A DNA stretch of 37,211 nt from a virus. The DNA lies in IMG/VR virus record IMGVR_UViG_3300008339_000200, positions 1 to 37,211 of that record; one strand, written 5' to 3'. Positions 4,832-34,586 of this stretch are shown here, piece by piece; the first letter of the stretch is position 1, and every line of letters begins with the position of its first letter. A program made the translations under genes and the position numbers. Below the pieces are notes generated by a model, which searched no databases, was not told the DNA's origin, and saw only the letters and a list, made by a program, of their open reading frames with translations.

Positions 4832-4839
4832 ATACTTAG
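4832..4839 (-). promoter_or_regulatory. Late-promoter-like element CTAAGTAT
   Basis: Minus-strand CTAAGTAT, four bases before the ATG of the 405-aa gene. Its TAA is also the stop codon of the upstream hub gene (4836-4838). Same element as before many other genes here. Confidence 0.55.
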
Positions 4840-6338
4840 CCTACATCATCTGAAATAGGCATTCTATCATTAGTATGTAGTTTAACCGTATACAAAGTGT
4901 TAGTATATTTTTCGTCGGTAAACGTATGAACAATTTTGTTAACATACCACTGACCAAGTAATTTATTATCAAAATTATTAGCGATTGTATTTTGATTTTT
5001 ATCTATCCCTATAAAACAGTTAGCCTGTCTGTAGGTTGTACCCGGCACTGTAAAGGCTAAACTTTGATTTAAAAACAACATACTTTTTAATAATAAGTTT
5101 CTACTATCAGCGTATCGCGCAACTTTGTCTCTTTGAAACGAATACGCTTGCTTAACTATTTTTGCGTCTTTTTTAGTTTTATTTAATGTTAATGCGGCAG
5201 TAGCATTCACCCCTAAACTATCTACATAGGTTTTTTGTATATAGTTTTTAACACTTTCTACTGTATTATCTACAAAGTCTACTTTAAATGTTTTATTTTT
5301 TAAGTCGTTTGAATAACAAGGATAATTTACAAAAAAATTCGTATTAGTATTTGTAGAACTATCTTCAAATTGATAATTTGTAATTATACTATTAATATTA
5401 GAAAAATATTTTAAATCTGTGCTTTTAGGTATTTGTTGAAAAGACGGAATAATACTGTCATCAGATTGGCTGCTACCTGCTATTATAAAATTTTCTCTGT
5501 GCAAGACTCCAGTTATAGAACGCTGCTGCACAGCTAATTTAAATAAATTATTGAAAGATTGTAAAAACCAGGTCTTGGTATAACGATCTCTATATAACAA
5601 ACAAGGATCCCCTTCTTGCTGATTGCCTGTTTTTTGGCTAGTGTGTCTATAAAGTAAATATTCTAAATCATCAATAGCATTATTATTGGCTAAAGAATTA
5701 TAAAAAATTTTACTTGCTCCTGTATCCCAACTAGTGCTAAATTTAGAATCTTCTCCTAATACAAACTGTATCAAATTTTTTATAGCTAAACCTGTAGATA
5801 TTTTTTTTTCTTCATCAGTTAGTAAGGACGGTATTAAATTAGAAGGTAAAAGATTATTTGTTGACCAATCTACATTTATTTCTGAAAATATTTGATAGTC
5901 TAATTCCCAAAAATTTAATTGAAGGTATTTGTCTCTTACCGTATTACCGGTAACTATATCTTTTTTATCGTATACTGCGAATACAAATTCCATATTATAA
6001 CTATCTGGCGAAAGTTCCGCATTTGAATGGTCATCTACTATAGGCGCTATTTTAATTGCTATTATATCTCTACCATCATTACGAAACACATAATTTGCAT
6101 CTATAGGTACCGTGCCGTCTGGCCTTCTTTCAATTATATTGTCAGGATTGCGTATAACAAGGGTGCCGGTTTTATACCATAATAACCCATCATCAATTAT
6201 TTGTAAATTAACTAAATTCGCTGTGTTTATTGGAAACACCCGGCCATCGGGATTAAGTAAAGAAATATCGACTAAATACTTTTGATTGTTATAGTATAAA
6301 GTATTTGTAGGTATTGGGGTTATTGTAGATCTGATCAT
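4836..6338 (-). CDS. Putative baseplate hub protein (gp27/gpD-like role)
   Basis: A 500-aa beta-rich protein with no transmembrane segment. The N-terminal half has hub-like strands (YLVDISLLNPDGRVFPINTA, then GLLWYKTGTLVIRNPDN). The C-terminus KLLGQWYVNKIVHTFTD followed by YTVKLHTNDR resembles the last strands of tail hub proteins, which end with a phrase of the type 'G.y.v..v.H.f.....y.t.l.l'. The gene lies directly downstream of the gp53-like wedge gene, with an ATGA overlap (6335-6338), and two genes before the spike, where a hub that holds the spike would be expected. The assignment rests on architecture and context; direct similarity to T4 gp27 is too weak to read by eye. Confidence 0.6.
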   Translation of the reverse strand: MIRSTITPIPTNTLYYNNQKYLVDISLLNPDGRVFPINTANLVNLQIIDDGLLWYKTGTLVIRNPDNIIERRPDGTVPIDANYVFRNDGRDIIAIKIAPIVDDHSNAELSPDSYNMEFVFAVYDKKDIVTGNTVRDKYLQLNFWELDYQIFSEINVDWSTNNLLPSNLIPSLLTDEEKKISTGLAIKNLIQFVLGEDSKFSTSWDTGASKIFYNSLANNNAIDDLEYLLYRHTSQKTGNQQEGDPCLLYRDRYTKTWFLQSFNNLFKLAVQQRSITGVLHRENFIIAGSSQSDDSIIPSFQQIPKSTDLKYFSNINSIITNYQFEDSSTNTNTNFFVNYPCYSNDLKNKTFKVDFVDNTVESVKNYIQKTYVDSLGVNATAALTLNKTKKDAKIVKQAYSFQRDKVARYADSRNLLLKSMLFLNQSLAFTVPGTTYRQANCFIGIDKNQNTIANNFDNKLLGQWYVNKIVHTFTDEKYTNTLYTVKLHTNDRMPISDDVG

Positions 6339-6691
6339 TGCTGCTTTATACTTTGTAATACTTCAGTTACTATACGCGGGTCAAGTATTTTAAGCACAGT
6401 ACCCGCTTTAGGAAATTCTATTGGATTGTCAATCTTATTAACACTACATATTAACCACCATAATTGAGGAGTTGCGTATTGTTTATTAGAAATATCAGTC
6501 CAAGTGATGTTATCATACGGCACGGTGTAAGTTTGAAAATAACTATCAGCTAATACATCCGGAAAGTTTACTGTATTAAGCAAATTATAAAAATAAACTT
6601 TTTTATCTTTGTAAACATTGAAAAGGTTTTCAAAGTTATACATGTCTAAAGGTTTTAATTCAGGTATATTGTTTTGCTTTTGAGGGTCCAT
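6335..6691 (-). CDS. Baseplate wedge protein, gp53/LysM-like
   Basis: A small 118-aa protein whose second half (residues 60-105) reads NITWTDISNKQYATPQLWWL, then IDNPIEFPKAGTVLKILDP. This is the pattern of T4 gp53 and LysM-like tail proteins: a strand, a 'Y.tP..ww.i...N.i.nP' core, and 'G..l.ipd'. In contractile tails this protein joins baseplate wedges to the central hub. Length is shorter than T4 gp53 (about 196 aa), so it may represent only the core domain. It is translationally coupled to the downstream hub gene through ATGA. Confidence 0.72.
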   Translation of the reverse strand: MDPQKQNNIPELKPLDMYNFENLFNVYKDKKVYFYNLLNTVNFPDVLADSYFQTYTVPYDNITWTDISNKQYATPQLWWLICSVNKIDNPIEFPKAGTVLKILDPRIVTEVLQSIKQQ

Positions 6692-6700
6692 TTTAATATA

Positions 6701-8146
6701 TTAAGGGCCAAACCGTCCATTAGGAAAACCGCCACGCGGGATAAAAGCGCCTACTGTACCACCACCAGAAACCGGGCTACCAGCTCCGCCTGTAATGTCT
6801 TCTCTTATTTGTCTTTGAGTTACTCCGCTAGCATTTAACGAAGGATCTTGTTCGGCTCGTTCAGCCTTAAATACTTGTACTATAGTTTCTCCGTCTGCCC
6901 ATCCAAATAAATTTTGAGTAGTTGTTAACAAGCTTCTAATAGTGAGAGTAACTTTATACGCTTCAGGTATTAATTTAACATTTGGCCCGCTTTCCGGGGG
7001 CACTGTATTGCCCGTTGCTAAATCTATATACCTCGTGGTGCCTTCATTAGTCACCGTTAGCTTTTCTATGTTTGCAACAGGAAAGCGTTTATAGCCAGGC
7101 ACTTCAATTTCATAAATACATGGCGGATCTAATAAATTTATACCTCTACGGTTGGGTAAATTTTGATATGTAAGAACATATAAAAATTCCCAATTGTTTT
7201 GAGTTTGTTCTATACTAATTGTATTAAACAAATAGAAAGTTAAAGTAATACTATCTCCAGATTCTGGTGGAGAGTAGCCTTTTATTTTTTCTCGGCCAGC
7301 ACCAGGTTCCCCTCCTAAAGCCGCCGCTTCAACTACACTAGTTATTAAATCAATACCTCCCAGGGCAGCAGCTCCGCCACTTCCTTTTCCTATCATTTTT
7401 CTCGATTGTTCTAATAAATTTGTTATAGGAGCATTTTTACCGGGTTCAGTCCAGCTGGAATTAATACCGGTCATATTATCTATACTAATATAAGGCAGTA
7501 TATAGCTAATTTTTGTAGCTATACCGCTGTATAAATTAGAATAAGGATCTAACGCGTCTTTACCCCCTCTGCTTTTATCTATTTCTAGTTTAAGTCTACT
7601 AGGATCGCTAAACTGGCTGTACGCGTAGGCTCCTAATGCCGTTGTGCCTGCAGCGGCCGCGGCCCCGCCAAATATTTTAGCAATTGTTGCTTTGCCTGCT
7701 TTAACTTCAGCGGCGCTTCCTGTAAGTGTAGCTCGGGCTAGGCGACCGAGTGGCCCTGGTAGCCGGCTTGCTATACCAGCTGCTGTATTTGTCAGTTGCC
7801 CTAAAAAAGCTTCTCCGCCTGCAATTGCTCCAGCCCCTAAAGCTAATTGAGCTAAAGGATTTTCTACATCTAATCTACCGAGAGCTTCTTGAAAGCCTCG
7901 CGCGCTATTAATATAAGACAAAAGTTCGGCAGAATATTTTAATCTATATTCAGTTAATTTTACTCGAGGTATTAATGACCGAGTCTTAGGGTTTGAAAGA
8001 GTCCAACAAAAATCTTTATGTACATTATATGTAGCTGCAGCTTTGTTATTTTTAGGTACTAAATACCTTGCCCCGTATTCGGATTTAGATATAGCAAGAT
8101 CCGGTATTTCATTTGCATAATCTACTTCTTTAAACCAAGAGGGCAT
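6701..8146 (-). CDS. Putative tail tube cap/baseplate protein (gp48/gp54-like role)
   Basis: A 481-aa protein in three parts. The N-terminus (1-95) is globular. A Gly/Ala-rich hydrophobic segment runs from about 100 to 180 (LALGAGAIAGGEAFLGQL, then GGAAAAAGTTALGAYAYSQF). The C-terminal half, about 295-430, looks like a tube-fold domain (SGDSITLTFYLFNT, WEFLYVLTYQN, CIYEIEVPGYKRFPVANIEK, YKVTLTIRSLLTTTQNLF). Tube-fold domains in baseplate proteins cap or nucleate the tail tube, and position between tape-measure candidate and gp53-like gene agrees with that. The hydrophobic Gly/Ala insert is unusual for this role. The function is inferred. Confidence 0.55.
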   Translation of the reverse strand: MPSWFKEVDYANEIPDLAISKSEYGARYLVPKNNKAAATYNVHKDFCWTLSNPKTRSLIPRVKLTEYRLKYSAELLSYINSARGFQEALGRLDVENPLAQLALGAGAIAGGEAFLGQLTNTAAGIASRLPGPLGRLARATLTGSAAEVKAGKATIAKIFGGAAAAAGTTALGAYAYSQFSDPSRLKLEIDKSRGGKDALDPYSNLYSGIATKISYILPYISIDNMTGINSSWTEPGKNAPITNLLEQSRKMIGKGSGGAAALGGIDLITSVVEAAALGGEPGAGREKIKGYSPPESGDSITLTFYLFNTISIEQTQNNWEFLYVLTYQNLPNRRGINLLDPPCIYEIEVPGYKRFPVANIEKLTVTNEGTTRYIDLATGNTVPPESGPNVKLIPEAYKVTLTIRSLLTTTQNLFGWADGETIVQVFKAERAEQDPSLNASGVTQRQIREDITGGAGSPVSGGGTVGAFIPRGGFPNGRFGP

Positions 8147-8150
8147 AATA

Positions 8151-8158
8151 TTACTTAC
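8151..8158 (-). promoter_or_regulatory. Late-promoter-like element GTAAGTAA
   Basis: Minus-strand GTAAGTAA four bases before the ATG of the 481-aa gene, in the 21-base gap after the tape-measure candidate. Weaker match (G at position 1, A at position 8). Confidence 0.45.
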
Positions 8159-8167
8159 TACTAAATA

Positions 8168-10093: not shown

Positions 10094-10097
10094 CGAA

Positions 10098-10105
10098 ATA
10101 CTTAG
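10098..10105 (-). promoter_or_regulatory. Late-promoter-like element CTAAGTAT
   Basis: Minus-strand CCTAAGTAT, element ending four bases before the ATG of the tape-measure candidate; no Shine-Dalgarno sequence is visible there. Confidence 0.55.
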
Positions 10106-10118
10106 GCTGCCTCTGTAG

Positions 10119-10886
10119 TTATATTTCTACGAGAAACTCTGTATTAATATTCAAGACTATATCTGTCTCAATACCTTCTTTTTTAGCCTTTAAAGTTAAT
10201 ACCTCTGTATTTAAATTAAAAAGCATTCTAATAAACTCTCCTACTTTATTAATTAAATTTACTGGTAAAGTTTCAACAATTGCTATTTGCTCTTGCGGCG
10301 TAAACTGTTTAAAATTTATCAAAACACCTTCTACATAAATTTCTTTTATGCATTTGCATGTTTCTCCTATATACATATCTCCTAATGCCTCTACAAAATT
10401 TTTAACATCGTTTTTTGCAAGAGTTTGTTGATATCTCAGCTCTTTTTCGTGTTTATATTGTTCTATTATTTTAGGTACTTCTATATCAATTTTTATTTTA
10501 TCAAACTCAATAGTCTTAGCCAAGTCTTGTATCTTAGCTAGTTTATCTATACTTTCTGCTACTGCAGCATCTCCGTATTCGGATTTAATTATATCCCCGT
10601 GTAGAGTTTTACGGTATGCTAAAAGAATAGCTAGTCTATCTAGCACATTAAACTCCTTAGTTATATCCCAATCTAAACAATTCTCTGTTATAATTTCATA
10701 TGTTGCTATAATAAACTTAGTACGAAAAACTAAATTATCATATCCAGCGTCGTATAGTTTTTTTTGCTGGGCTCCGGTAATAGGGCGAAAACCTACTTCT
10801 CTTTTTAAAGAAGGTATGTAGATTTGCAAAATATTTTTATTTGCATAATCTTTAAGGGTATCGAGTACATTTTGTATGTTATTCAT
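10119..10886 (-). CDS. Baseplate hub assembly protein, T4 gp26/gp51-like
   Basis: A 255-aa protein with the opening typical of the T4 baseplate gp26 family: IYIPSLKREVGFRPITGAQQ followed by KKLYDAGYDN, then a helical section with FNVLDRLAILLAYRK. In T4, gp26 and gp51 assist formation of the central hub and are minor or catalytic components. This gene and its upstream neighbour share the layout (short beta N-terminus, 'lakl.i....yd.lairE' helix, helical remainder), so they look like divergent paralogues. It lies immediately before the tape-measure candidate, as expected for hub assembly factors. Confidence 0.62.
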   Translation of the reverse strand: MNNIQNVLDTLKDYANKNILQIYIPSLKREVGFRPITGAQQKKLYDAGYDNLVFRTKFIIATYEIITENCLDWDITKEFNVLDRLAILLAYRKTLHGDIIKSEYGDAAVAESIDKLAKIQDLAKTIEFDKIKIDIEVPKIIEQYKHEKELRYQQTLAKNDVKNFVEALGDMYIGETCKCIKEIYVEGVLINFKQFTPQEQIAIVETLPVNLINKVGEFIRMLFNLNTEVLTLKAKKEGIETDIVLNINTEFLVEI

Positions 10887-10888
10887 AT

Positions 10889-11779: not shown

Positions 11780-11781
11780 AA

Positions 11782-12510: not shown

Positions 12511-12521
12511 ACTAATTAAAT

Positions 12522-13190
12522 TTAACGTCTAAACACTTGCCCTACTGCTTGAGTGGCGCGGGTTAAGCTACGAGCTGTATTAGTAATTGCGTTAAGTGTA
12601 CCGAGCAGACCGCCTTGTTGCTGTTTGATTGAACTTCTATCAACTTCGCTTACCCAGTATTGATATGCAATTGTAGCTTTTATTTCTTGTATACTACCAT
12701 TACCGGTCATTTTATAATCTATTGCTCCTAGATCAGTAATATAAGCCCCATAAAGACTATATGTACTAATTGTATACATTTGATCGTCTAATAAAATTAA
12801 ATCAATTACATTTTCTGTACCTGGTAAAGTAATATTATTATTTTGACTATTAAAGGGGCTAAATGTATTTGACATCGCACCTTCTAATCTTTGACGAAGC
12901 TCTAATGCTTGGTCTGCGTAAAAAGTTATACTCCAGCTTTCAGAATTAGGATAAGTAGCAGCTCCCGGTACGTTAAAGTTGAGCCCCATATACGGAGCTT
13001 TAATATTTTCTATTCTACGAGAAGGAAGAGCTGCACTTTTAACATATACCAAATCATCTTCACCAAATAAATCTTGCCCGCCAGCAACAATAAAACTATT
13101 AACTCTTAATTGGAAATCTCTAGAAAACTTTTTTTGAGTAGCTACTCTATAAAAGTTTGAAATATTTTGATTAGTCTGATAAGTTGCCAT
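12522..13190 (-). CDS. Tail tube paralogue, 222 aa
   Basis: A clear homologue of the main tube protein at 14032-14553. Shared features include NFYRVATQKKFSRDFQLRV at the N-terminus, LVYVKSAALPSRRIENI, YMGLNFNVPGAATYPNSESW, and the C-terminal YSLYGAYITDLGAIDYKMTG with ATIAYQYWVSE. It then adds about 45 residues, Gln-rich and basic, that the main tube protein lacks. It is likely a minor tube or tube-junction protein. Its own late-promoter-like CTAAGTAT precedes the ATG by seven bases and overlaps the stop of the upstream paralogue. Confidence 0.75.
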   Translation of the reverse strand: MATYQTNQNISNFYRVATQKKFSRDFQLRVNSFIVAGGQDLFGEDDLVYVKSAALPSRRIENIKAPYMGLNFNVPGAATYPNSESWSITFYADQALELRQRLEGAMSNTFSPFNSQNNNITLPGTENVIDLILLDDQMYTISTYSLYGAYITDLGAIDYKMTGNGSIQEIKATIAYQYWVSEVDRSSIKQQQGGLLGTLNAITNTARSLTRATQAVGQVFRR

Positions 13191-13197
13191 CTTAATA

Positions 13198-13205
13198 ATA
13201 CTTAG
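13198..13205 (-). promoter_or_regulatory. Late-promoter-like element CTAAGTAT
   Basis: Minus-strand CCTAAGTAT seven bases before the ATG of the 222-aa tube paralogue; its TAA is the stop codon of the upstream gene (13202-13204). Confidence 0.55.
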
Positions 13206-13978
13206 GCTGTACCTGCTAGGTTAGGGTTTATTTGATTATTTACCGGTACAGCTGAACGCAATGTGTTTTTTATTAAAGCTGTAGTTTCATTAGAACCAAT
13301 ATATTGAAACGCAAATGTTGTAGTTATAGAAGCTATACCGCCTGCAGTGGTAGTATTATAAGCTATATCTCCGAGATTTATCGGAAAACAACCATACAGT
13401 TTATAATCTCTTACCGGCTGCATATTAAAAATATCTATTCTATCCTGTTTAGATCTTTTGTCTTTTATTTCTCTGTTTCCTCTTTCTAATTTACCCGCTC
13501 CTAACTGCACTGGTTTGTATAACGTTAAAGTTATATCCGTATGAGCGGTTTGATTAGATTTAAATCCGTGCTCATTATAAACTTGTTGACTCCAATACTC
13601 AAATATGTCTTTAATTAGATAGGTATCGTCGGAGTAAAAAGTAAGAGCCCAATTTAAAGAACTAGGGTAAGATGCTGCAATTGGTACGTTAAAGCTAAAA
13701 TTTTTATAGTTTAATTTAGCCGTACTTATTTTTCTACTTGGTATACTACCTGCTTTTACATAAAGTAACTTACTTGGTGTAAAAAATCTGTTAATAGCTC
13801 TTTCTCCAGTTTGTAACTCTTTTATATTAGTTATATTAGTTACTCTGAATAAATTGTCTTTTGCAAACCCTAGCCGTTGAGCTGCTTGATAAAAGCCTTT
13901 TAAAGAATCGTCTGAGACAGATCCTCGTAACGGAGTTTCGTTTACTACAAATGGGGGCAGCTTAACAATATCAGCCAT
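13202..13978 (-). CDS. Tail tube paralogue, 258 aa
   Basis: Homologous to the main tube protein over the core: GFYQAAQRLGFAKDNLFRV, LLYVKAGSIPSRKISTAKL, FSFNVPIAASYPSSLNWALT, YKLYGCFPINLGDIAYNTTT, TTFAFQYIGSNE. It differs by a 25-residue N-terminal extension, a charged insertion after residue 165 (ERGNREIKDKRSKQDRID) and a C-terminal tail. It is the first gene after the internal terminator and has its own ATAAGTAT element between hairpin and ATG, so it may be expressed independently of, and more weakly than, the sheath and main tube. Confidence 0.74.
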   Translation of the reverse strand: MADIVKLPPFVVNETPLRGSVSDDSLKGFYQAAQRLGFAKDNLFRVTNITNIKELQTGERAINRFFTPSKLLYVKAGSIPSRKISTAKLNYKNFSFNVPIAASYPSSLNWALTFYSDDTYLIKDIFEYWSQQVYNEHGFKSNQTAHTDITLTLYKPVQLGAGKLERGNREIKDKRSKQDRIDIFNMQPVRDYKLYGCFPINLGDIAYNTTTAGGIASITTTFAFQYIGSNETTALIKNTLRSAVPVNNQINPNLAGTA

Positions 13979-13982
13979 ACAG

Positions 13983-13990
13983 ATACTTAT
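13983..13990 (-). promoter_or_regulatory. Late-promoter-like element ATAAGTAT
   Basis: Minus-strand ATAAGTAT four bases before the ATG of the 258-aa gene and 11 bases downstream (in the sense of transcription) of the internal terminator, where a new promoter would be needed. Confidence 0.6.
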
Positions 13991-14001
13991 CTCTGTACAT
14001 T

Positions 14002-14024
14002 AAAAAACCCCCTTACGGGGGTTT
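14002..14024 (-). terminator. Rho-independent terminator inside the tail operon
   Basis: Minus-strand AAACCCCC-GTAA-GGGGGTTTTTT: eight-base perfect stem with tetraloop followed by six T's. It lies eight bases after the stop of the main tube gene and before the three minor tube paralogues. Confidence 0.9.
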
Positions 14025-14031
14025 GTGAGTT

Positions 14032-14553
14032 TTATTCGTGGCGCCAGTAGTGGTATGCTAGCGTTGCATTAAACGTTAGTGGTGTACCAGTACCTGCAAC
14101 ATTATATGCTACATTTCCTAAAGATACTACATAAACCCCGTATAATTTATACGTATTAACTATTTGTAATTTATCATCTACAAGGTTTAACTGAATTACT
14201 TTATCAACTCCGCGTGGAGATAAATCTCCAGTACTCGTAGCATCATCAAAAACTTTACCGATTTGCCAGTCTTCGAATTTTTTACGAATGACCCCGTTTT
14301 TATCATTACGGAACGTCACAGCCCAAGCGTTACTACCTGGATACTTTACTGTACCCGGCACATTAAAGTCAAGCCCCATATAAGTTGCGGTTTGATTACT
14401 AATAGTGCGGTCAGGAAGATTAGCGGTGGTAATATAAACGAAATCGTCTTCGTTGAATGTATCTTCCCCGATAGAGACTACCCGTAACATATAGTCACGG
14501 GCAAAGTCTCTAGCTTGGGATACCCGAAAGAAGTCTTGTATTGTTTGAGCCAT
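14032..14553 (-). CDS. Major tail tube protein, gp19-like
   Basis: The tube monomer that polymerises inside the sheath. At 173 aa it is close to T4 gp19 (163 aa) and has no insertions, unlike the downstream paralogues. Visible tube-family features: DFFRVSQARDFARDYMLRV, FVYITTANLPDRTISNQ, YMGLDFNVPGTVKYPGSNAW, VTFRNDKNGVIRKKFEDW, YKLYGVYVVSLGNVAYNVAG, and the terminal ATLAYHYWRHE. It follows the sheath gene directly and is closed by a strong terminator, so sheath and tube form the high-expression part of the operon. A CTAAATAT element lies five bases before its ATG. Confidence 0.85.
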   Translation of the reverse strand: MAQTIQDFFRVSQARDFARDYMLRVVSIGEDTFNEDDFVYITTANLPDRTISNQTATYMGLDFNVPGTVKYPGSNAWAVTFRNDKNGVIRKKFEDWQIGKVFDDATSTGDLSPRGVDKVIQLNLVDDKLQIVNTYKLYGVYVVSLGNVAYNVAGTGTPLTFNATLAYHYWRHE

Positions 14554-14558
14554 ATTGA

Positions 14559-14566
14559 ATATTTAG
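14559..14566 (-). promoter_or_regulatory. Late-promoter-like element CTAAATAT
   Basis: Minus-strand CCTAAATAT five bases before the tail tube ATG. One of the closer matches to the T4 late promoter TATAAATA. Confidence 0.6.
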
Positions 14567-14573
14567 GTTAAAC

Positions 14574-16832: not shown

Positions 16833-16849
16833 AAAGTTTTTGTATACTA

Positions 16850-16857
16850 TTATTTAG
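16850..16857 (-). promoter_or_regulatory. Late-promoter-like element CTAAATAA
   Basis: Minus-strand CCTAAATAA 17 bases before the sheath ATG, leaving room for a short leader; it is the only site of the set spaced beyond 9 bases. Confidence 0.5.
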
Positions 16858-16882: not shown

Positions 16883-17467
16883 TTACTGAAGTAATTCGGC
16901 GCCTAATTGACTGAAAGCAAAAGTAAAACTTGACTCAATTTGAGTAGCGTCTTGGTAGCTATATTTAAACCCTTGCAGATTTGTAATAAATGCTTTATGG
17001 TAATCAAATTTAATTTTCTGATTATTATATTCATCTAAGCCAAAAACAGTAATCAGGGTCTGATATTCATGCATTGTAGCAGGGCCTTTTACTGCAAGCC
17101 CGTCTTTATTTGATATACCCATTTTGGAATGATTAATATAATCAAGCCACTTCCATAAAACCCACCAGTTATTATATCCGTTATCTACCGCAAAATTAAC
17201 TGTAACATTGTTATATTGCTCTCTTTGGTAAGTGGTGACTTTTAACGGCTGCCCGCCAAAATTTAATGCAACTGGATTTATTGCTATATCTGGCACAATA
17301 TTGCCGTATACTGAATACTGTAAAGTATTTAAATCCAAATTATAACTTTTACGAACATCTCCTACTGGAGTATTTATAGACTTTAAAGGGTCAGGAATAT
17401 TTAAGACAAGTATAAATTTGTCTTTTCTTGATTTATTTAAAATAGACTGTTGGGCTACGTCGCTCAT
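16883..17467 (-). CDS. Tail tube-like protein upstream of sheath (completion/terminator candidate)
   Basis: A 194-aa beta-rich protein. The opening has KDKFILVLNIPDPLKS and the middle has YNNVTVNFAVDNGYNNWWVL with WKWLDYINHSK. The end, FKYSYQDATQIESSFTFAFS, is the closing hairpin seen in tube-fold proteins. It is more distant from the main tube than the downstream paralogues. As the gene just before the sheath it may be a tube variant, tail terminator or tail completion protein. Its start overlaps the stop of the nucleotidyltransferase-like gene (ATGA), and it has both AGAAGG (17471-17476), a reasonable Shine-Dalgarno site, and a CTAAGTAA element just upstream. Confidence 0.6.
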   Translation of the reverse strand: MSDVAQQSILNKSRKDKFILVLNIPDPLKSINTPVGDVRKSYNLDLNTLQYSVYGNIVPDIAINPVALNFGGQPLKVTTYQREQYNNVTVNFAVDNGYNNWWVLWKWLDYINHSKMGISNKDGLAVKGPATMHEYQTLITVFGLDEYNNQKIKFDYHKAFITNLQGFKYSYQDATQIESSFTFAFSQLGAELLQ

Positions 17468-18522
17468 TTACCTTCTTTACTTAGGTAGTAATATTTATAC
17501 ACCGGATCAAAAGCAAGAGATATACCACTTGTACTTAAGCTTCTAGGCTCGTTATGTACTTTATCTAAATTAATACTATAAAAAGTTGCTATGGCGTTAG
17601 CTATATTTGGCGGTATATGAGTTTTTCCTTTTTTCTTTTTCTTTAAATTTTCTATAGCCGGAAAAGGGGTTTCTTGGTCAATATGAGACCGCGCAACCAT
17701 TGTTACAGACTTAGTGCTAGGTTTAGTTAATTTACTAACCCCGGCAGTTAAGCCTTGATGTCGTGGACCTCTGCTACCTTCGCCTCCAGTAGACATACCT
17801 GGTAACGCAAAAAACTGTTTAAAATTTTCTTGATTAAGAGACAGCTCTTTATCTCCTTTTGCTACCACACCAGTAACGAGTTTATCTATCATACCACGTC
17901 GCCTTAATTCTTTAAAAGCTAAATTTTCTACAGAGAATTCTCCGCCGGCTTCGAGGCCGGCTTGTCTCATTTTTAATATTTTTTCTTTAACTCTTTCTGC
18001 ACATTCTAAATTACAACTGTCACTTAAAGCATGGCTAATTAATTCAAGTATATGATCAACTTTTCGTTTAACCTCTGACTGATTAATTGGTTTTTCTTTT
18101 TCCGGTACTATTAACCACGAATCGTTTTTAATAGAATATACACCGGTTGCGTAATGTTGTTCGTTAATGTCTTGTACGTAGCACTCTACATCAAAACCTT
18201 TTATTTTTATATCATGGTTGCTATTCCAAACAGTCTTTTTAGCTTTAAAATAATCTTTTAAAAAGTCTACATCCTGACCGTATTCAGTTAAATCAGTTAG
18301 TATATGTAGATCTATATCACTTTGAGGCGTATAATTATAATTTGCTAAAGAACCAGTAAACGTAATATCCTCTACATCAATATCTAACTCGAAAGACTCT
18401 AAAAATGCTTCTGCTACTTGTAGTAGTTTATCTTTTATAGCCGGAATAAGCTTACCGTCTCTCCATACTAATGGATTAAGAGTGTCATGATATTGAAAAG
18501 TAAGCTTTGCAGATGGTTCCAT
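17464..18522 (-). CDS. Nucleotidyltransferase-like protein (pol-beta superfamily)
   Basis: Residues 53-75 contain ITFTGSLANYNYTPQSDIDL followed by HIL: the hG[GS]...Dh[DE]h motif of pol-beta-type nucleotidyltransferases, with GS at 57-58 and metal-binding D69 and D71. A third acidic residue is available at D111 in IKGFDVECYVQ. The C-terminal 150 residues have a helical part (ERVKEKILKMRQAGLEAGGE) and a basic segment with KKKKKGK. The family transfers nucleotides to RNA, protein or small molecules; the substrate here is unknown. It is the first gene of the tail operon, coupled by ATGA to the next gene, so it is expressed with the virion proteins. The catalytic residues look intact. Confidence 0.75.
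   Translation of the reverse strand: MEPSAKLTFQYHDTLNPLVWRDGKLIPAIKDKLLQVAEAFLESFELDIDVEDITFTGSLANYNYTPQSDIDLHILTDLTEYGQDVDFLKDYFKAKKTVWNSNHDIKIKGFDVECYVQDINEQHYATGVYSIKNDSWLIVPEKEKPINQSEVKRKVDHILELISHALSDSCNLECAERVKEKILKMRQAGLEAGGEFSVENLAFKELRRRGMIDKLVTGVVAKGDKELSLNQENFKQFFALPGMSTGGEGSRGPRHQGLTAGVSKLTKPSTKSVTMVARSHIDQETPFPAIENLKKKKKGKTHIPPNIANAIATFYSINLDKVHNEPRSLSTSGISLAFDPVYKYYYLSKEGK
17471..17484 (-). promoter_or_regulatory. CTAAGTAA element next to an AGAAGG ribosome-binding site
   Basis: Minus-strand CTAAGTAA (17477-17484) immediately followed by AGAAGG (17471-17476) and then the ATG at 17467. Here transcript from an upstream promoter could use the Shine-Dalgarno site; transcript starting at this element would lose part of it. 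Confidence 0.5.
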
Positions 18523-18525: not shown

Positions 18526-18541
18526 ACGTAAATATTTACGT
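18526..18541. promoter_or_regulatory. Perfect 16-bp palindrome between divergent genes: bidirectional late-promoter candidate
   Basis: ACGTAAATATTTACGT reads the same on both strands and fills the 20-base gap between the tail operon start (18522, -) and the oxidoreductase start (18543, +). Each strand presents GTAAATAT (18528-18535 on +, 18532-18539 on -) seven and nine bases from its ATG. It could be a pair of promoters or an operator site. Confidence 0.6.
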
Positions 18542-20011: not shown

Positions 20012-20019
20012 ATTTTATA
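20012..20019 (-). promoter_or_regulatory. Late-promoter-like element TATAAAAT (variant)
   Basis: Minus-strand TATAAAAT five bases before the chosen ATG at 20006. It departs from the CTAARTA pattern of the other sites but is close to T4 TATAAATA. Confidence 0.4.
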
Positions 20020-20041: not shown

Positions 20042-20049
20042 GTAAATAC
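20042..20049 (+). promoter_or_regulatory. Late-promoter-like element GTAAATAC
   Basis: Plus-strand GTAAATAC four bases before the terminase ATG at 20054; it supports this start over the in-frame ATG at 20021, which would place the element inside the coding region. Confidence 0.55.
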
Positions 20050-22935: not shown

Positions 22936-22942
22936 TGTAATA

Positions 22943-22950
22943 TTATTTAG
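22943..22950 (-). promoter_or_regulatory. Late-promoter-like element CTAAATAA
   Basis: Minus-strand GCTAAATAA seven bases before the ATG at 22935, in the 55-base gap between divergent genes. Confidence 0.55.
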
Positions 22951-22978
22951 CAAATTTGTGATTAATTCTATAAATTCT

Positions 22979-22986
22979 GTAAATAT
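22979..22986 (+). promoter_or_regulatory. Late-promoter-like element GTAAATAT
   Basis: Plus-strand GTAAATAT four bases before the ATG at 22991. A TATAAATT lies 13 bases farther upstream as an alternative. It decides the start of the neck-like gene. Confidence 0.55.
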
Positions 22987-22990
22987 TTTT

Positions 22991-23977
22991 ATGTCAATAG
23001 CGAAGTACTGTGTAGATACGGGCTACTATATTGCCCCTTCAGTTACCACTGGTAATACAGAATGCCTCTCAGGGGACCTTCGCTATTTGGATATAAGCAA
23101 AACAGATACAGAACGTAATCTTTGGGAAAATTGGTGGGATGAACAAATACGGCAATATGGTATGCGTACTAGCTACTATATAAATGCTTATACTCTTTCT
23201 GGACACGACTTTTTCTACGGAGAACAGCCTTTAGCTGGATTTCTTCCGCCGTTAAGCGTGGTAATGTGTCTTACTGTTAATAATGATAGTATTATATTAA
23301 GTAAATTTGGTATACAAGGTAATGCGGATATTACAGCGGTTGTTTCTATTAAAGCATTTACCTCTTCTTTAACTGCATCTTCTTTAAGCGGCATAACATC
23401 TAGATATACATATGAACCTAAAGCAGGGGATTTAATTGAATTATCCGAATATGGTACTACTCGTCCAAACGGAAGAAGCGGGCAAATATATGAAATAACA
23501 GAACGAGTTGATCAAAGAGGTGGAGAAGCTAATCAATTAATGGGGCATTATGTTTGGATGATAAAAGGTAAACGTTATGATTATACCTTTGAACCTAATG
23601 CCCCACGAGAAGCTCTTAGCAAACAGGTATTTGATAATAAATACGATGGAATTGTGCCTCTTGATACCGGAACTCCTGGAGCGGATGCTCGCATTATTGA
23701 AACCAAAGCATATTCTCAAAATGTGGATAAGCAAGGTAGAACAGTTGTGTATAATTACCAACAAAATACTAATGCTCCGCTTTCTGGATACTTAACATAT
23801 GACGGCACTGATCCTAAAACTGGCCGACCAAATACCGGGGTGTATGGGGCGTATGATGATGGTGGTACTTTAGTAAATCTATACGCAGGCGGCGGCGCTC
23901 ATACCCCAAGCGCAAGTGCGCTTGGTTCTAATAATAGTGAAAATACATATCTCGGACTTCGTAGTCCTAATAACTAA
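22991..23977 (+). CDS. Neck / head-closure protein, gp14-like
   Basis: A 328-aa protein whose central part follows the layout of T4-like neck proteins. It has WENWWDEQIRQYGMRTSYYI at 45-64, FFYGEQPLAGFLPPLSVVM at 74-92 (compare the 'lYGEdp...f' phrase of gp14-type proteins), FGIQGNADITAVVSIKAF at 106-123, PKAGDLIEL at 143-151, and a strand-rich GQIYEITERVDQRGGEANQL. The remaining C-terminus is Gly/Asn-rich and probably extended. It would join the head vertex to the tail. The ATG at 22991 is preferred over one 21 codons upstream, which lies within the divergent promoter gap and adds an unlikely hydrophobic leader. It is the first gene of the plus-strand structural block. Confidence 0.6.
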   Translation: MSIAKYCVDTGYYIAPSVTTGNTECLSGDLRYLDISKTDTERNLWENWWDEQIRQYGMRTSYYINAYTLSGHDFFYGEQPLAGFLPPLSVVMCLTVNNDSIILSKFGIQGNADITAVVSIKAFTSSLTASSLSGITSRYTYEPKAGDLIELSEYGTTRPNGRSGQIYEITERVDQRGGEANQLMGHYVWMIKGKRYDYTFEPNAPREALSKQVFDNKYDGIVPLDTGTPGADARIIETKAYSQNVDKQGRTVVYNYQQNTNAPLSGYLTYDGTDPKTGRPNTGVYGAYDDGGTLVNLYAGGGAHTPSASALGSNNSENTYLGLRSPNN

Positions 23978-23981
23978 ATAA
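23974..23981 (+). promoter_or_regulatory. Late-promoter-like element CTAAATAA
   Basis: CTAAATAA six bases before the ATG of the first giant fibre; its TAA (23975-23977) is the stop codon of the neck-like gene. Confidence 0.58.
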
Positions 23982-23987
23982 TATTAT

Positions 23988-28415: not shown

Positions 28416-28416
28416 A

Positions 28417-28424
28417 GTAAATAT
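28417..28424 (+). promoter_or_regulatory. Late-promoter-like element GTAAATAT
   Basis: GTAAATAT eight bases before the ATG of the 115-aa gene, just after the stop of the first fibre. Confidence 0.52.
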
Positions 28425-28432
28425 AATAGTAT

Positions 28433-28780: not shown

Positions 28781-31700
28781 TGGCCACGTACAATCAACCC
28801 CAACTTATAAGCGATAGGGTGCAGGTTATACCGCCTTTAAGTGCGGACTCGGCTCGCTATCAGTTTCTTAATTTAAAAAATGCTGAGCCTAATTTAGGAG
28901 TACCGTTAAGCGCGTCCGCTGGCGCAAATTATATTCCTATATCTAATGATTCTGGAGTAAGAAGTTTTACCACTAATAATTCTATAGTACTTTCGGGGGA
29001 TAAAGTAGGCTTTGGTAAATTACCAGTTTATGCAGTTGATGTTAATGGAGATGTTAATGTTACTGGAGAATTTCGCAAAAACGGAGAAATAGTCTCCGTC
29101 AGTGGCTATTCAGGTTACAGCGGTATATCTGGTTATTCCGGGTTTAGCGGTATATCGGGCTATTCAGGTTACAGCGGTGTATCAGGCTACTCAGGTTACA
29201 GCGGTATATCGGGCTACTCAGGCTATAGTGGTATATCGGGCTATTCAGGCTATAGTGGTATTAGTGGTTACTCAGGCTATAGTGGTATATCGGGCTACTC
29301 AGGCTATAGTGGTATTAGTGGTTACTCAGGTTATAGCGGTGCTGACGGTATTTCTGGGTATTCTGGTATATCAGGCTACTCAGGTATATCAGGCTACTCA
29401 GGTATATCAGGCTACTCAGGCTATAGTGGTATTAGTGGTTACTCAGGTATATCGGGGTATTCAGGTTATAGCGGTGCTGACGGTATTTCTGGGTATTCTG
29501 GTATATCAGGCTATAGCGGTATAAGTGGCTATAGCGGCATATCAGGCTATTCTGGTTATTCGGGTATTTCTGGTTATTCGGGTATTTCTGGCTATTCTGG
29601 TTATAGCGGTATTATAGGAGAGTCTGGAACTTCTGGTTATTCTGGTATATCAGGTTATAGTGGTATAAGTGGTTATTCAGGTTATAGTGGTATATCAGGC
29701 TATTCCGGGGAATCAGGTTATAGTGGTATATCAGGTTATAGCGGTATATCAGGTTATTCTGGTTACAGCGGTACATCTGGTTATTCTGGTTATTCCGGTG
29801 TATCTGGTTATTCAGGTATTTCAGGCTATAGCGGCATAAGTGGTTACTCAGGTGTTTCTGGCTATAGTGGCTATAGCGGTATTAGTGGGTATAGTGGAGA
29901 CGCTGGAACTTCAGGCTATAGTGGCGGTGTTGGGCAATCTGGTTATAGTGGTATTTCTGGTTATAGTGGTGCATCTGGTTTTAGCGGCTTTAGTGGTGCC
30001 CCAGCAGTTGGGGTAGTTTATTACCCGACTACTTCTGCAGCTGATATAGCTAATTTTAATTACTATGATGTAGTACCTCAATCAGGCGCTGAAACAACAT
30101 CGACTACATTTATTGCTATTACTGACAATTATAAAACAGTAATTTCAAATATTACTCTTACCGGAGAGCCCGGTACTACTAGTATACCTGTAGGTACTTG
30201 GGTCTTTGATACTTATTATAGTTTAGCGGGTTTAGGTTTAGGATTAGGTAAAGTAGTAAACCTTGCGTTTGAAATATTAAAATATAACGGCAGCACTTTA
30301 ACAAGCTTATTTACGGCCTACAATGATGGGGCTATTACTACCAATGTTGCTTCAGGTTCACCTGCATCTTTATTAACAGAGTATGTAATTTCTACCCCAA
30401 TTGCCTTAGATGCCACGGACCGTCTAGCGATTATAACTAAAGCTAGTACAAACGATACTAATACTATACAGTTTAACTTCCATTATCTAGGCGCAGACCA
30501 TTATAGCGCTGTACGAACCGGTATATACCGCGGAGCTGTAGGCACATCTGGTTTTAGCGGCTACAGCGGTATTAGTGGTTATAGTGGTATAAGTGGTTAT
30601 TCTGGTCCTTCAGGTTATTCCGGTGGGTCTGGTTATAGTGGCTATAGTGGTATAAGTGGTTATTCTGGTACAAGTGGTTATTCCGGTATATCTGGTTATA
30701 GTGGACCTCAAGGTACAGTAGGCACTCAAGGCCCTACCGGTACGTCGGGTTATAGTGGTATATCAGGCTACTCTGGGCCACAAGGTGCTATTGGTACCTC
30801 AGGCTACTCAGGTATAAGTGGTTTTTCTGGTATATCTGGTTATAGCGGTTATTCAGGTATACCAGGCGACTCGGGCACATCAGGTTATTCTGGTATATCA
30901 GGCTACTCCGGTATAAGTGGTTTTTCTGGTATATCTGGTTATAGCGGTTACTCCGGTATAAGTGGTTTTTCTGGTATATCTGGTTATAGCGGTTACTCTG
31001 GTATATCAGGCTATTCTGGTCCACAAGGTACAGCTGGCGCCCAAGGTACTACTGGTACTCAAGGCATTACCGGAACATCTGGTTTTAGTGGTGTATCGGG
31101 GTATTCTGGTTTATCAGGGTATAGTGGTTACTCAGGTATAAGCGGCTTTAGCGGACCTCAAGGCACTACTGGTACTTCAGGCTTTAGCGGTATATCGGGT
31201 TATAGTGGTATAAGCGGCTTTAGCGGTCCTCAAGGCACTACTGGCACGCAAGGCACTACTGGTACTTCAGGCTATAGCGGTATAAGTGGTTATAGCGGTA
31301 TATCTGGCTACTCTGGACCGCAAGGCACAACCGGTACTCAGGGTACTACTGGCACTTCAGGCTTTAGTGGTATATCTGGCTATTCAGGCATATCAGGGTA
31401 TAGTGGCCCACAAGGCACTACTGGCGCACAAGGCGTAACCGGCACTCAGGGTACTACTGGTACTTCAGGCTTTAGCGGTATATCTGGATATTCTGGACCG
31501 CAAGGTACTACTGGCGCACAAGGCGTAACCGGCACTCAGGGCACTACTGGTACATCAGGGTTTAGCGGTATATCAGGATATTCTGGCCCACAAGGTACTA
31601 CTGGCACTCAAGGCACTACTGGCACTTCAGGCTTTAGCGGTATAAGTGGTTATAGCGGTATATCTGGCTACTCTGGCCCACAAGGTACTACTGGCACGCA

Positions 31701-33612
31701 AGGCACTACTGGTACATCAGGGTTTAGCGGTATATCAGGATATTCTGGCCCACAAGGTACTACTGGTACGCAAGGCACTACTGGCACTTCAGGCTTTAGC
31801 GGTATAAGTGGTTATAGCGGTATATCTGGCTACTCTGGCCCACAAGGTACTACTGGCACTCAGGGTACTACTGGTACTTCAGGCTTTAGCGGTATATCAG
31901 GATATTCTGGCCCACAAGGTACTACTGGTACGCAAGGCACTACTGGTACGCAAGGTACTACTGGCACTTCAGGCTTTAGTGGTATAAGTGGTTATAGCGG
32001 TATATCTGGCTACTCTGGCCCACAAGGTACTACTGGCACTCAGGGTACTACTGGCACTCAGGGTACTACTGGTGCCCAAGGTATTACAGGCACGCAAGGC
32101 ACTACTGGTACATCAGGGTTTAGCGGTATATCAGGATATTCTGGCCCACAAGGTACTACTGGCACTCAAGGCACTACTGGCACTTCAGGCTTTAGTGGTA
32201 TATCTGGCTATTCCGGTGTTAAAGGTGCAACCGGCTCTCAAGGAGCAACTGGCGCACAAGGTACTACTGGCACTCAAGGCACTACTGGCACATCAGGCTT
32301 TAGTGGTATATCTGGTTATTCTGGCCCACAAGGTACTACTGGCGCTCAAGGCACTACTGGCACTACTGGTGCCCAAGGTATTACCGGGACCCAAGGCACT
32401 ACTGGCACTTCAGGCTTTAGCGGTATAAGTGGTTATAGCGGTATATCTGGCTATTCCGGTGCAAAAGGTGCAACCGGCTCTCAAGGAGCAACTGGCGCGC
32501 AAGGCACTACTGGCACTACCGGTACCCAAGGCACTACTGGTGCCCAAGGCACAACCGGCACTCAAGGTACTACTGGTACTTCAGGCTTTAGCGGCATAAG
32601 TGGTTACTCAGGTGTTTCTGGCTATTCCGGTGCAAAAGGTGCAACCGGCTCTCAAGGAGCAACTGGCGCGCAAGGCACTACTGGCACTACCGGTACCCAA
32701 GGCACAACTGGCGCACAAGGCACAACCGGCACTACCGGTACCCAAGGCACTACTGGCGCACAAGGCACAACCGGCACTCAGGGTACTACTGGTACTTCAG
32801 GCTTCAGCGGTATAAGTGGTTATAGCGGTATATCTGGCTATTCTGGTGCCAAAGGTGCAACTGGCTCTCAAGGAGCAACTGGCGCGCAAGGCACTACCGG
32901 CACTACCGGTACCCAAGGCACAACTGGCGCACAAGGCGCAACCGGCACTCAGGGTACTACTGGTACATCGGGCTTTAGCGGTATATCTGGCTATTCTGGC
33001 GCCAAAGGCACAACTGGATCTCAAGGTGCGACCGGCACCCAAGGTAATACTGGCGCCCAAGGCACTACCGGTACCCAAGGTATAACTGGTACATCGGGCT
33101 TTAGCGGTATTTCAGGTTACTCTGGTGCATTTGCGGGCACTGGTACAACAAATTATGTAGCTAAGTTTACTGGTGCAAGTTCATTAGGTAATAGTCAGAT
33201 ATTTGATAACGGTACAAACGTCGGTATTGGTACTCAAAGTGCCGCTTATAAATTAGAAGTCAGTGGTTCATTTGCTGCAACTACTAAGTCTTTCGTAATT
33301 GATCACCCAACTAAGCCTGGTAAGAAATTAGTATACGGTGTTATAGAAGGCCCTGAGCATTCGGTCTTTATACGTGGTAAAACCACTACAAATGTAATAC
33401 CTTTACCAGAGTATTGGTTTAATTTAGTAGACGAAGAAACAATTACCGTTCAACTCACACCTATAGGCGCATTTCAAAAGCTTGTAGTCTTAGAAGCAAA
33501 TAGTAGACAAGTCACTATTAAGAATGATAGTATGCTTGACTCTCTAATTGATTGCTACTTCTTCATACAAGCAGAACGTAAAGACATACCAAAATTAGTA
33601 ACGGAGGTGTAA
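28780..33612 (+). CDS. Giant repeat fibre, Gly-X-Ser and Gly-Thr-Thr/Gln blocks, 1610 aa
   Basis: The largest gene of the window. Residues 1-108 are an N-terminal head ending in KLPVYAVDVNGDVNVTGEFR, a phrase found in fibre shafts. Residues 109-408 are GYS/GIS repeats, and 409-587 a globular insert homologous to the one in the first fibre (GVVYYPTTSAADIANF, TWVFDTYYSLAGL). Residues 588-1448 are a second repeat region where GYS units alternate with GPQ-GTT-GTQ-GTT-GTS units. The C-terminus 1449-1610 has TNYVAKFTGASSLGNSQIFD, YKLEVSGSFAATTKSFVID, EGPEHSVFIRGKTT, EYWFNLVDEETITVQLTPIG and YFFIQAERKDIPKL, a module I recognise from other phage fibre ends. The long shaft suggests a fibre of hundreds of nanometres if extended. 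Confidence 0.85.
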   Translation: MATYNQPQLISDRVQVIPPLSADSARYQFLNLKNAEPNLGVPLSASAGANYIPISNDSGVRSFTTNNSIVLSGDKVGFGKLPVYAVDVNGDVNVTGEFRKNGEIVSVSGYSGYSGISGYSGFSGISGYSGYSGVSGYSGYSGISGYSGYSGISGYSGYSGISGYSGYSGISGYSGYSGISGYSGYSGADGISGYSGISGYSGISGYSGISGYSGYSGISGYSGISGYSGYSGADGISGYSGISGYSGISGYSGISGYSGYSGISGYSGISGYSGYSGIIGESGTSGYSGISGYSGISGYSGYSGISGYSGESGYSGISGYSGISGYSGYSGTSGYSGYSGVSGYSGISGYSGISGYSGVSGYSGYSGISGYSGDAGTSGYSGGVGQSGYSGISGYSGASGFSGFSGAPAVGVVYYPTTSAADIANFNYYDVVPQSGAETTSTTFIAITDNYKTVISNITLTGEPGTTSIPVGTWVFDTYYSLAGLGLGLGKVVNLAFEILKYNGSTLTSLFTAYNDGAITTNVASGSPASLLTEYVISTPIALDATDRLAIITKASTNDTNTIQFNFHYLGADHYSAVRTGIYRGAVGTSGFSGYSGISGYSGISGYSGPSGYSGGSGYSGYSGISGYSGTSGYSGISGYSGPQGTVGTQGPTGTSGYSGISGYSGPQGAIGTSGYSGISGFSGISGYSGYSGIPGDSGTSGYSGISGYSGISGFSGISGYSGYSGISGFSGISGYSGYSGISGYSGPQGTAGAQGTTGTQGITGTSGFSGVSGYSGLSGYSGYSGISGFSGPQGTTGTSGFSGISGYSGISGFSGPQGTTGTQGTTGTSGYSGISGYSGISGYSGPQGTTGTQGTTGTSGFSGISGYSGISGYSGPQGTTGAQGVTGTQGTTGTSGFSGISGYSGPQGTTGAQGVTGTQGTTGTSGFSGISGYSGPQGTTGTQGTTGTSGFSGISGYSGISGYSGPQGTTGTQGTTGTSGFSGISGYSGPQGTTGTQGTTGTSGFSGISGYSGISGYSGPQGTTGTQGTTGTSGFSGISGYSGPQGTTGTQGTTGTQGTTGTSGFSGISGYSGISGYSGPQGTTGTQGTTGTQGTTGAQGITGTQGTTGTSGFSGISGYSGPQGTTGTQGTTGTSGFSGISGYSGVKGATGSQGATGAQGTTGTQGTTGTSGFSGISGYSGPQGTTGAQGTTGTTGAQGITGTQGTTGTSGFSGISGYSGISGYSGAKGATGSQGATGAQGTTGTTGTQGTTGAQGTTGTQGTTGTSGFSGISGYSGVSGYSGAKGATGSQGATGAQGTTGTTGTQGTTGAQGTTGTTGTQGTTGAQGTTGTQGTTGTSGFSGISGYSGISGYSGAKGATGSQGATGAQGTTGTTGTQGTTGAQGATGTQGTTGTSGFSGISGYSGAKGTTGSQGATGTQGNTGAQGTTGTQGITGTSGFSGISGYSGAFAGTGTTNYVAKFTGASSLGNSQIFDNGTNVGIGTQSAAYKLEVSGSFAATTKSFVIDHPTKPGKKLVYGVIEGPEHSVFIRGKTTTNVIPLPEYWFNLVDEETITVQLTPIGAFQKLVVLEANSRQVTIKNDSMLDSLIDCYFFIQAERKDIPKLVTEV
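29104..30003 (+). repeat. Gly-X-Ser codon repeat block 1, second fibre
   Basis: About 100 nine-base units. It includes near-identical DNA copies at 29161-29337 and a duplicated 135-base segment at 29338-29607. Confidence 0.9.
29338..29607 (+). repeat. Tandem duplication of a 45-residue segment with synonymous divergence
   Basis: Two adjacent 135-base copies (29338-29472 and 29473-29607), each starting GADGISGYSGIS. As read here the 45 encoded residues are identical, while the DNA agrees well only over roughly the first 40 bases and then differs at many synonymous sites, including TCA versus AGC serine codons. Confidence 0.85.
30541..33123 (+). repeat. Mixed GYS / GTT-GTQ repeat block 2, second fibre, with higher-order units
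   Basis: About 287 Gly-X-X units. From about 31140 they are organised in higher-order units of roughly 24-45 residues (GTSGFSGISGYSG followed by PQGTTGTQGTT), repeated about twenty times. Toward the 3' end GAK-GAT-GSQ-GAT variants replace GPQ. Confidence 0.9.
33603..33608 (+). promoter_or_regulatory. Strong Shine-Dalgarno site GGAGGT
   Basis: GGAGGT five bases before the ATG at 33614, inside the last codons of the second fibre. It contrasts with the SD-less starts of many genes here and suggests this LamG gene is read from a long upstream transcript. Confidence 0.75.
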
Positions 33613-33613
33613 C

Positions 33614-34309
33614 ATGGCAACAAACTATTCTCCAAGAGTAGTAACCGATGGCTTAGTGATGTGTTTAGATGCTGGTAATCAAAAAAGCTATTCAGGATCT
33701 GGTACTGCTTGGAATGATTTAAGCTTTACAGGTAACAATGCAACTTTAGTTAATGGACCGACTTACAGTGGTGCAAATGGCGGAGCAATTACTACTGATA
33801 CTGTTGATGATTATATTTCAGTTAATAATAGCTCTTCTTTACAATTAACAACTGGCTTTACAGTTGGTATGTGGGTTAAGTTTAATAATGCTATAGGGGT
33901 ATCTTACAAAAATCTTATAGGAAAACCTACATATACTAAGTACGGAATAATTATTGAGTGGTATGGTAATAATCCGTTATTACCAGATTTTATTTCAACA
34001 GGAGGCGCAAGAAATACTGGACCCGGGCTACTTTATCCTTCATTAACTAATTGGAATTATGTAGTACACTCTTACGATAAAAACGGAGGCGCCAATAACC
34101 AACGATTTCATGTATGGCATTCAGGAACATATACCAGCGCATATGCTACGCCCGGTGCGCTTAATATAGAAACATCGACAGACCCTCTTTATATAGGAGG
34201 AGCCGGAGCTGGTTTAACAATAAGTTGCGTGTGGGTTTATAATCGTGGTATAACTAATAATGAAGTACTACAAAATTACAACGCAACTAGATCTCGCTTT
34301 GGATTATAA
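33614..34309 (+). CDS. LamG/concanavalin A-like virion protein 1
   Basis: A 231-aa jelly-roll protein, first of five related copies. It opens with the family signature PRVVTDGLVMCLDAGNQKSY, then SGSGTAWNDLS and NNATLVNGPTY. The middle has LTTGFTVGMWVKFNN, typical of LamG-like (concanavalin A-like) folds, and NWNYVVHSYDKN. It closes with SCVWVYNRGITNNEVLQNYN and a short ATRSRFGL tail. The fold binds carbohydrates or other surface ligands in many proteins, so a role in host-surface recognition or capsid/fibre decoration is plausible. The strong GGAGGT site fixes the start. Confidence 0.78.
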   Translation: MATNYSPRVVTDGLVMCLDAGNQKSYSGSGTAWNDLSFTGNNATLVNGPTYSGANGGAITTDTVDDYISVNNSSSLQLTTGFTVGMWVKFNNAIGVSYKNLIGKPTYTKYGIIIEWYGNNPLLPDFISTGGARNTGPGLLYPSLTNWNYVVHSYDKNGGANNQRFHVWHSGTYTSAYATPGALNIETSTDPLYIGGAGAGLTISCVWVYNRGITNNEVLQNYNATRSRFGL

Positions 34310-34312
34310 TTT

Positions 34313-34582
34313 ATGTACAGCGCTCGTGAATTCATGATAATAAATTCTTCTCAAATCAGCGCTGTTGATTTTGAGCAAGTTTTAGAAACATCTCCAGAAA
34401 CTTTAAGGTATTCTGTTGACAAATCACTAACCCTTTTTAAATGGGACAATAATAAAACTAATGGTATCCCTTCAAGTATTGCTAATATACCTAGCGAGTA
34501 TAAACAAGGGCCTTATAACTACGAAGAAATGATGATAGAGTTAAACTCTCCTGTCTGGACCCAGCCTACATCAGGTATATAA
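34313..34582 (+). CDS. Small hypothetical protein between LamG genes, 89 aa
   Basis: Unrecognised family. YSAREFMIINSSQISAVDF, then EQVLETSPETLRYSVDKSL and TLFKWDNN make a short alpha/beta start; the end is GPYNYEEMMIELNSPVWTQP. It is not a LamG domain. It is separated by three bases from the upstream LamG gene. Small genes in such positions often encode fibre chaperones or minor fibre parts, but there is no direct evidence here. Its stop is embedded in the ATAAGTAA element of the next gene. Confidence 0.7.
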   Translation: MYSAREFMIINSSQISAVDFEQVLETSPETLRYSVDKSLTLFKWDNNKTNGIPSSIANIPSEYKQGPYNYEEMMIELNSPVWTQPTSGI

Positions 34583-34586
34583 GTAA
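34579..34586 (+). promoter_or_regulatory. Late-promoter-like element ATAAGTAA
   Basis: ATAAGTAA four bases before the ATG at 34591; its TAA (34580-34582) is the stop codon of the 89-aa gene. Confidence 0.5.

Follow-up and report, generated by a model that had tools for sequence, protein, structure and literature searches.

A putative T4-type late promoter element placed just before start codons in uncultured T4-like phages, with near-leaderless late mRNAs as its probable consequence

Why should one short element recur a few bases before the start codons of about half the genes of a phage, on both strands? The question is posed by an IMG/VR phage fragment of 37,211 bases (the window), whose tail, neck and packaging genes identify it as part of a distant T4-like myovirus. 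Genes for the terminase (gp17), the tail sheath (gp18), four tail-tube-like proteins, a gp14-like head closure protein, a gp5-like hub and collagen-like tail fibres were recognised. For terminase and capsid, the best matches among named phages reached only ~32-35% identity. IMG/VR holds many relatives of the window, most with 72-100% terminase identity and on contigs of up to 140 kb. A scan of GTDB genomes with terminase and capsid, aimed at the host, yielded no relative. Long contigs of the window's clade (G001-G009, G011, G012, G014, G015, G017 and G018) and of more distant relatives (G021-G024) were included in the analysis. The gene start was computed throughout as the most upstream ATG. 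Due to the relatedness of the contigs, counts made across them are not independent.

The initial annotation had listed 16 sites of an eight-base element and one TATAAAAT variant, ending 4-9 bases before the ATG, or 17 bases in the case of the site at 16850. All coordinates on both strands and all distances were recovered from the sequence. Gaps are given here from the end of the six-base core TAARTA to the ATG; the eight-base form begins one base before this core. Counted by the core, the same distances are 5-10 and 18 bases (Table 1). The two overlapping divergent promoters at 18529-18538 lie in a perfect 16-bp palindrome, ACGTAAATATTTACGT, so that polymerase could probably occupy only one of the two at a time.

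Table 1. Putative late promoter cores and an adjacent terminator-like hairpin in the window (gap: bases between core and ATG)
Feature	Position	Strand	Gap	ATG	Gene	Remark
TAAGTA	4833..4838	-	5	4827		predicted +1 = A of AUG
TAAGTA	8152..8157	-	5	8146		predicted leaderless
TAAGTA (CCTAAGTATT)	10099..10104	-	5	10093		predicted leaderless
TAAGTA	13199..13204	-	8	13190	tail-tube-like	predicted 3-nt leader
TAAGTA	13984..13989	-	5	13978	tail-tube-like	predicted leaderless
Hairpin AAACCCCC-GTAA-GGGGGTTTTTT	14002..14024	-				intrinsic-terminator-like, directly upstream of 13984 promoter; read from sequence
TAAATA	14560..14565	-	6	14553	tail-tube-like	predicted 1-nt leader
TAAATA	16851..16856	-	18	16832	tail sheath gp18	predicted 13-nt leader
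TAAGTA	17478..17483	-	10	17467	tail-tube-like	second copy TAAATA 17492-17497
TAAATA	18533..18538	-	10	18522		overlaps plus-strand promoter
TAAATA	18529..18534	+	8	18543		divergent partner of 18533 element
TAAAAT (TATAAAAT)	20012..20017	-	5	20006		variant core
TAAATA	20043..20048	+	5	20054	terminase large subunit gp17	predicted leaderless; conserved in orthologues
TAAATA	22944..22949	-	8	22935		
TAAATA	22980..22985	+	5	22991	gp14-like head closure	predicted leaderless
TAAATA	23975..23980	+	7	23988	tail fibre	
TAAATA	28418..28423	+	9	28433		
TAAGTA	34580..34585	+	5	34591		predicted leaderless

In the window as a whole TAARTA is depleted (88 copies, compared to an expectation of 151), which is presumably due to the TAA stop codon in it. 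At a gap of 4-13 bases, it nevertheless precedes 14 of the 32 called starts. Chance would place it before 0.37 starts on average (maximum 3) according to 5,000 circular shifts, and before 1.55 (maximum 8) according to 2,000 dinucleotide shuffles of the upstream regions. Other ATGs of the window rarely follow the element: none of 91 internal in-frame ATGs and 9 of the 764 remaining ones did so. A search of pooled related contigs, performed without a prior motif, ranked TAAGTA and TAAATA first and second among the hexamers enriched upstream of starts, taken together. Thus, the initial claim that about half of the genes are preceded by the element more often than expected by chance held against shuffled and coding sequence as well as in a motif search across related contigs, and chance was ruled out by the shift, shuffle and internal-ATG controls. 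Overlap with the TAA stop codon of the gene before, which occurs at some elements, was likewise rejected as an explanation, since divergent gene pairs without a preceding stop carry the element too. The consensus reads VTAARTAW, in which the first two bases are relaxed compared to T4 and position -8 is A or G. T4-type late promoters have no sequence-specific -35 element; in the logo, only a weak and unexplained preference for G/T was visible 16-21 bases upstream of the core, which may reflect terminator tails.

To which genes the element belongs was determined in the window's clade and related contigs, where genes were classed according to their resemblance to proteins of T4 and Mosig. At a gap of 5-13 bases it was present before 24 of 33 late T4-core genes (gp3, gp4, gp13, gp20, gp21, gp25, gp48 and others) and before none of 45 early genes with functions in replication, recombination and nucleotide metabolism (gp43, gp44, gp46, gp47, gp55, uvsW, ssb, primase, nrdA/B, thyX). 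The corresponding Fisher p value of 5e-13 overstates the independence of the data, as the contigs are related. Among 29 distinct terminase upstream regions, all 21 with a divergent neighbour contained the element, but only one of the eight with a same-strand neighbour, in which the gene is operon-internal. Terminase orthologues of 73-95% identity have retained TAARTAT at a gap of 5-7 bases within otherwise unrelated upstream sequences. A similar picture emerged from structural-rich contigs: starts that follow a same-strand gene at a distance below 5 nt never had the element (0/54), whereas 28 of 37 (76%) at a distance of 5-24 nt did. Confinement to the heads of transcription units is the behaviour of a promoter.

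The absence of the element from operon-internal genes also bears on the suggestion, made in the initial annotation, that it might be an unusual translation signal. It could then be an A/T-rich start context as in Bacteroidota, without any promoter function. Such a role would fit the tight spacing and the fact that the genes lack Shine-Dalgarno (SD) sites, like those of hosts such as Flavobacterium, in which initiation is tuned by A-rich upstream bases (PMC6847099). However, operon-internal late genes would need a translation-start signal just as well, and they do not have it. In addition, the element is missing before all 45 early genes, it lies ~60 nt upstream of the capsid gene gp23, its core matches the gp55 promoter, and copies on both strands overlap between divergent genes. 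The operon-internal genes and the distance in gp23 largely exclude this possibility, which we regard as very improbable.

A T4-type late promoter requires further components, and these were searched for in the relatives. A homologue of the late sigma factor gp55 was identified there with PHROG profiles (phrog_234, E 5e-17), located between gp47 and uvsW; its family profile matches the solved structure of T4 gp55 (PDB 7d7c, E 1.3e-5). The more distant relatives possess gp55 as well. A gp45-like sliding clamp was detected as a partial match in one relative of the clade, G004 (phrog_223, E 2.7e-10). Neither gp55 nor gp45 was found in the 37-kb window fragment; both are known from the contigs of relatives only. 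Of the three homologues named in the initial annotation, gp55 and a gp45-like clamp were therefore recovered, while gp33 remained undetected by an HMM search with phrog_254, in which the controls were equally silent so that the search had no power. Pfam PF02916 failed to reveal gp45 and also its controls, before the clamp was found with PHROG. A C-terminal clamp-binding motif as in T4 was not evident by eye in the gp55 relatives. The AlphaFold model of a gp55 relative was poor (pLDDT 54), gave no match with Foldseek and was not used as evidence. Together with the class bias and the terminase data, gp55 and the gp45-like clamp on the relatives' contigs support the earlier proposal that the element is a T4-type late promoter, here in a variant form, as far as this can be judged from sequence.

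The nature of the mRNAs was inferred from the distance to the start codon. In 1,370 non-redundant genes, a gap of 0-4 bases was rare (n=17), while 104 genes showed a gap of 5, 115 a gap of 6, 52 a gap of 7 and 33 a gap of 8 bases, with falling numbers thereafter. In T4 the late promoter element spans positions -13 to -6 (PMC2988020), a geometry that at a gap of 5 sets +1 on the A of the AUG. At shorter gaps the message would begin inside or past the start codon, and a floor at 5 is what this constraint predicts. The predicted +1 base is A in 79% of the genes with a gap of 7 and in 75% of those with a gap of 8, figures that are inflated by orthologues. SD motifs were found before 1.1% of the element-led genes compared to 6.7% in the control, and before 4.6% of other leading genes (control, 7.1%); in the window, SD-like motifs occur at control frequency. 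A -10-like signal ~10-12 bp before the start codon, as in leaderless genes, is also present. Hence, both the near absence of visible SD sites and the near-leaderless state of the messages, as originally put forward, found support at the level of sequence, the former from SD-like motifs at background frequency and the latter from a floor that is absent from T4, Syn9 and P-SSM2. Most late mRNAs of this phage and its relatives are probably leaderless or have a leader of 1-5 nt, as predicted from these spacings; no 5′ ends have been mapped. A minority of element-led genes, including the tail sheath gene of the window, exhibit a gap of 11-20 bases and would have a real leader. The distant relatives G021-G024 show the same short-gap pattern, which therefore characterises the wider group and is not peculiar to the window fragment. 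The idea that these relatives generally use SD sites proved to be wrong; only their gp23 tends to do so.

All in all, we consider it very likely that a gp55-directed late promoter has been fused to the start codon, giving rise to leaderless or nearly leaderless late mRNAs. A gp55-family sigma factor of the phage, once made, would direct the host RNA polymerase to the -10-like VTAARTAW element, and every copy would start one late transcription unit. The promoter would have moved up to the start codon, where T4 keeps a leader with an SD site. Transcription would begin at the A of the AUG at a gap of 5, and 1-5 nt before the AUG at gaps of 6-10. If the late mRNAs are of this kind, their translation must proceed without SD pairing. 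The location of the element, its specificity for gene class and operon heads, its conservation, the spacing floor and the finding that relatives encode gp55 and a gp45-like clamp were read from DNA alone. The exact +1, control of the window phage's late genes by gp55/gp45 and the use of a 5′-terminal AUG in translation are inferred without transcript data.

It is also conceivable that the late promoter is real, but that the starts are mainly reached by longer read-through transcripts, the short-leader transcripts being of little importance. This possibility draws on the 73% of element-led genes that have a same-strand gene upstream, since read-through messages from there would be leadered. It does not account for the 21 terminase copies whose upstream neighbour is divergent, so that no message could enter them by read-through, nor for terminators just before several elements (window 14002-14024; gp23). 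Moreover, only the need to keep the AUG within a locally started transcript would lead one to expect a floor at exactly 5. We therefore think read-through unlikely. A processing site, at which long late transcripts are cleaved by an endonuclease immediately ahead of every AUG, would yield 5′ ends near the AUG as well. The element is, though, strand-specific at divergent heads, restricted to unit heads and a match to the known promoter, and no such nuclease has been identified. Hardly any weight can be given to processing, even less than to a translation signal. Thus, we favour the promoter fused to the start codon.

An exception to the short gap is gp23, the major capsid gene. In the four gp23 genes of the class count the element is located ~60 nt upstream. 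A comparison of 12 distinct clade members (L218, L240, L228, L239, L236, L212, L237, L238, L241, L225, L245 and L243) disclosed the order intrinsic terminator (in most of them), element and ~50-nt leader. The leader opens with a conserved hairpin, GTTGA-stem-loop-stem-TGAG, about where the T4 geometry puts +1. By eye, the stem covaries: both sides are changed in L228 (AAGTTCT/AGAACTT) and L237 (AAGCGAT/ATCGCTT). An Rfam search of the gp23 leaders did not reveal any family. The gp23 gene of more distant relatives is likewise preceded by a hairpin, and in many cases by an SD-like AAGGAG; a TTGAGGC-GCCTGA hairpin found there is possibly related to that of the clade. The same promoter can thus serve genes with a leader, and the short gap of the other genes is not forced by the promoter itself.

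Compared to known systems, the element shares with T4 late promoters (TATAAATA; gp55/gp33/gp45) the core TAAATA, the restriction to late genes and, in relatives, gp55 and a gp45-like clamp. Most T4 copies, however, lie 26-30 nt before the AUG with an SD site between, instead of 5-10 nt without one, and T4 late messages start with a leader that contains a ribosome-binding site, unlike the prediction for the window phage and its relatives. At position -8 the ratio of A to G is 145:104 in this clade, compared to 46:5 in its more distant relatives, 13:2 in Syn9 and 11:0 in T4. The elements of the cyanophages S-PM2 and Syn9 (NATAAATA) and of Aeh1 (a/gC-TAAATA) are relaxed in the first two bases and precede structural genes, as here, but that of Syn9 is mostly located 21-40 nt and that of P-SSM2 mostly 21-30 nt upstream, with leaders retained. 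The Pelagibacter phage Mosig has a few close copies, yet SD-like motifs in about half its genes. Leaderless genes of Actinobacteria and Deinococcus-Thermus have been inferred from a TA-like -10 box ~10-12 bp before the start (PMC3160421). The box distance is the same, but those are host sigma-70 genes, whereas here a phage late-sigma regulon is concerned. While gp55-type late transcription is known, its promoter fused to the start codon across a regulon would be new; in the open literature searched, we found no paper joining gp55 late promoters to leaderless mRNAs.

The host can only be guessed. Bacteroidota would agree with the lack of SD sites and with the bS21 ribosomal protein genes carried by two of the more distant relatives (L328 and L329, on G022 and G021, respectively); bS21 was not found in the window's own clade. 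A Bacteroidota host has been argued for other freshwater phages (PMC9723584). The Bacteroidetes phages with bS21 described there are large and have clustered terminase, capsid, protease and portal genes, similar to this group; the text makes no mention of promoters. Messages of Flavobacterium are mostly leadered (PMC6847099). Early promoters did not narrow down the host: sigma-70 pairs showed no clear enrichment, and the same was true of the -7 box typical of Bacteroidota (TAnnTTTG). We tentatively raise the possibility, for which the support is still weak, that a whole T4-like family expresses its virion genes from leaderless mRNAs, in keeping with Bacteroidota-like host ribosomes that ignore SD sites, and that only the capsid gene has retained a structured leader (a hairpin in the clade, a hairpin and an SD-like site in many distant relatives) for special control, perhaps with the phage bS21.

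If the fusion of promoter and start codon is correct, leaderless translation would be directly coupled to a well-understood phage promoter of the sigma factor/sliding clamp type, and +1 could be predicted at nucleotide resolution from sequence by means of the spacing floor. The phages would offer a natural system in which leaderless initiation could be studied across the genome of a lytic phage, and a simple rule to call late genes and their starts in abundant uncultured freshwater phages. With gp23 as the contrast case, it could be asked why the capsid gene needs a leader.

Two gene arrangements of the window may be added. Of the four tail-tube-like genes around the sheath gene (gp19, phrog_45; 12522-13190, 13202-13978, 14032-14553 and 16883-17467), three are arranged in tandem. 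Between 33614 and 37211, related genes matching phrog_24074 form a tandem array with the common start GGPKIVTDxLVLYLDAGN, possibly a series of adhesin cassettes, and at some members of this array an SD-like AAAGGA precedes the next gene.
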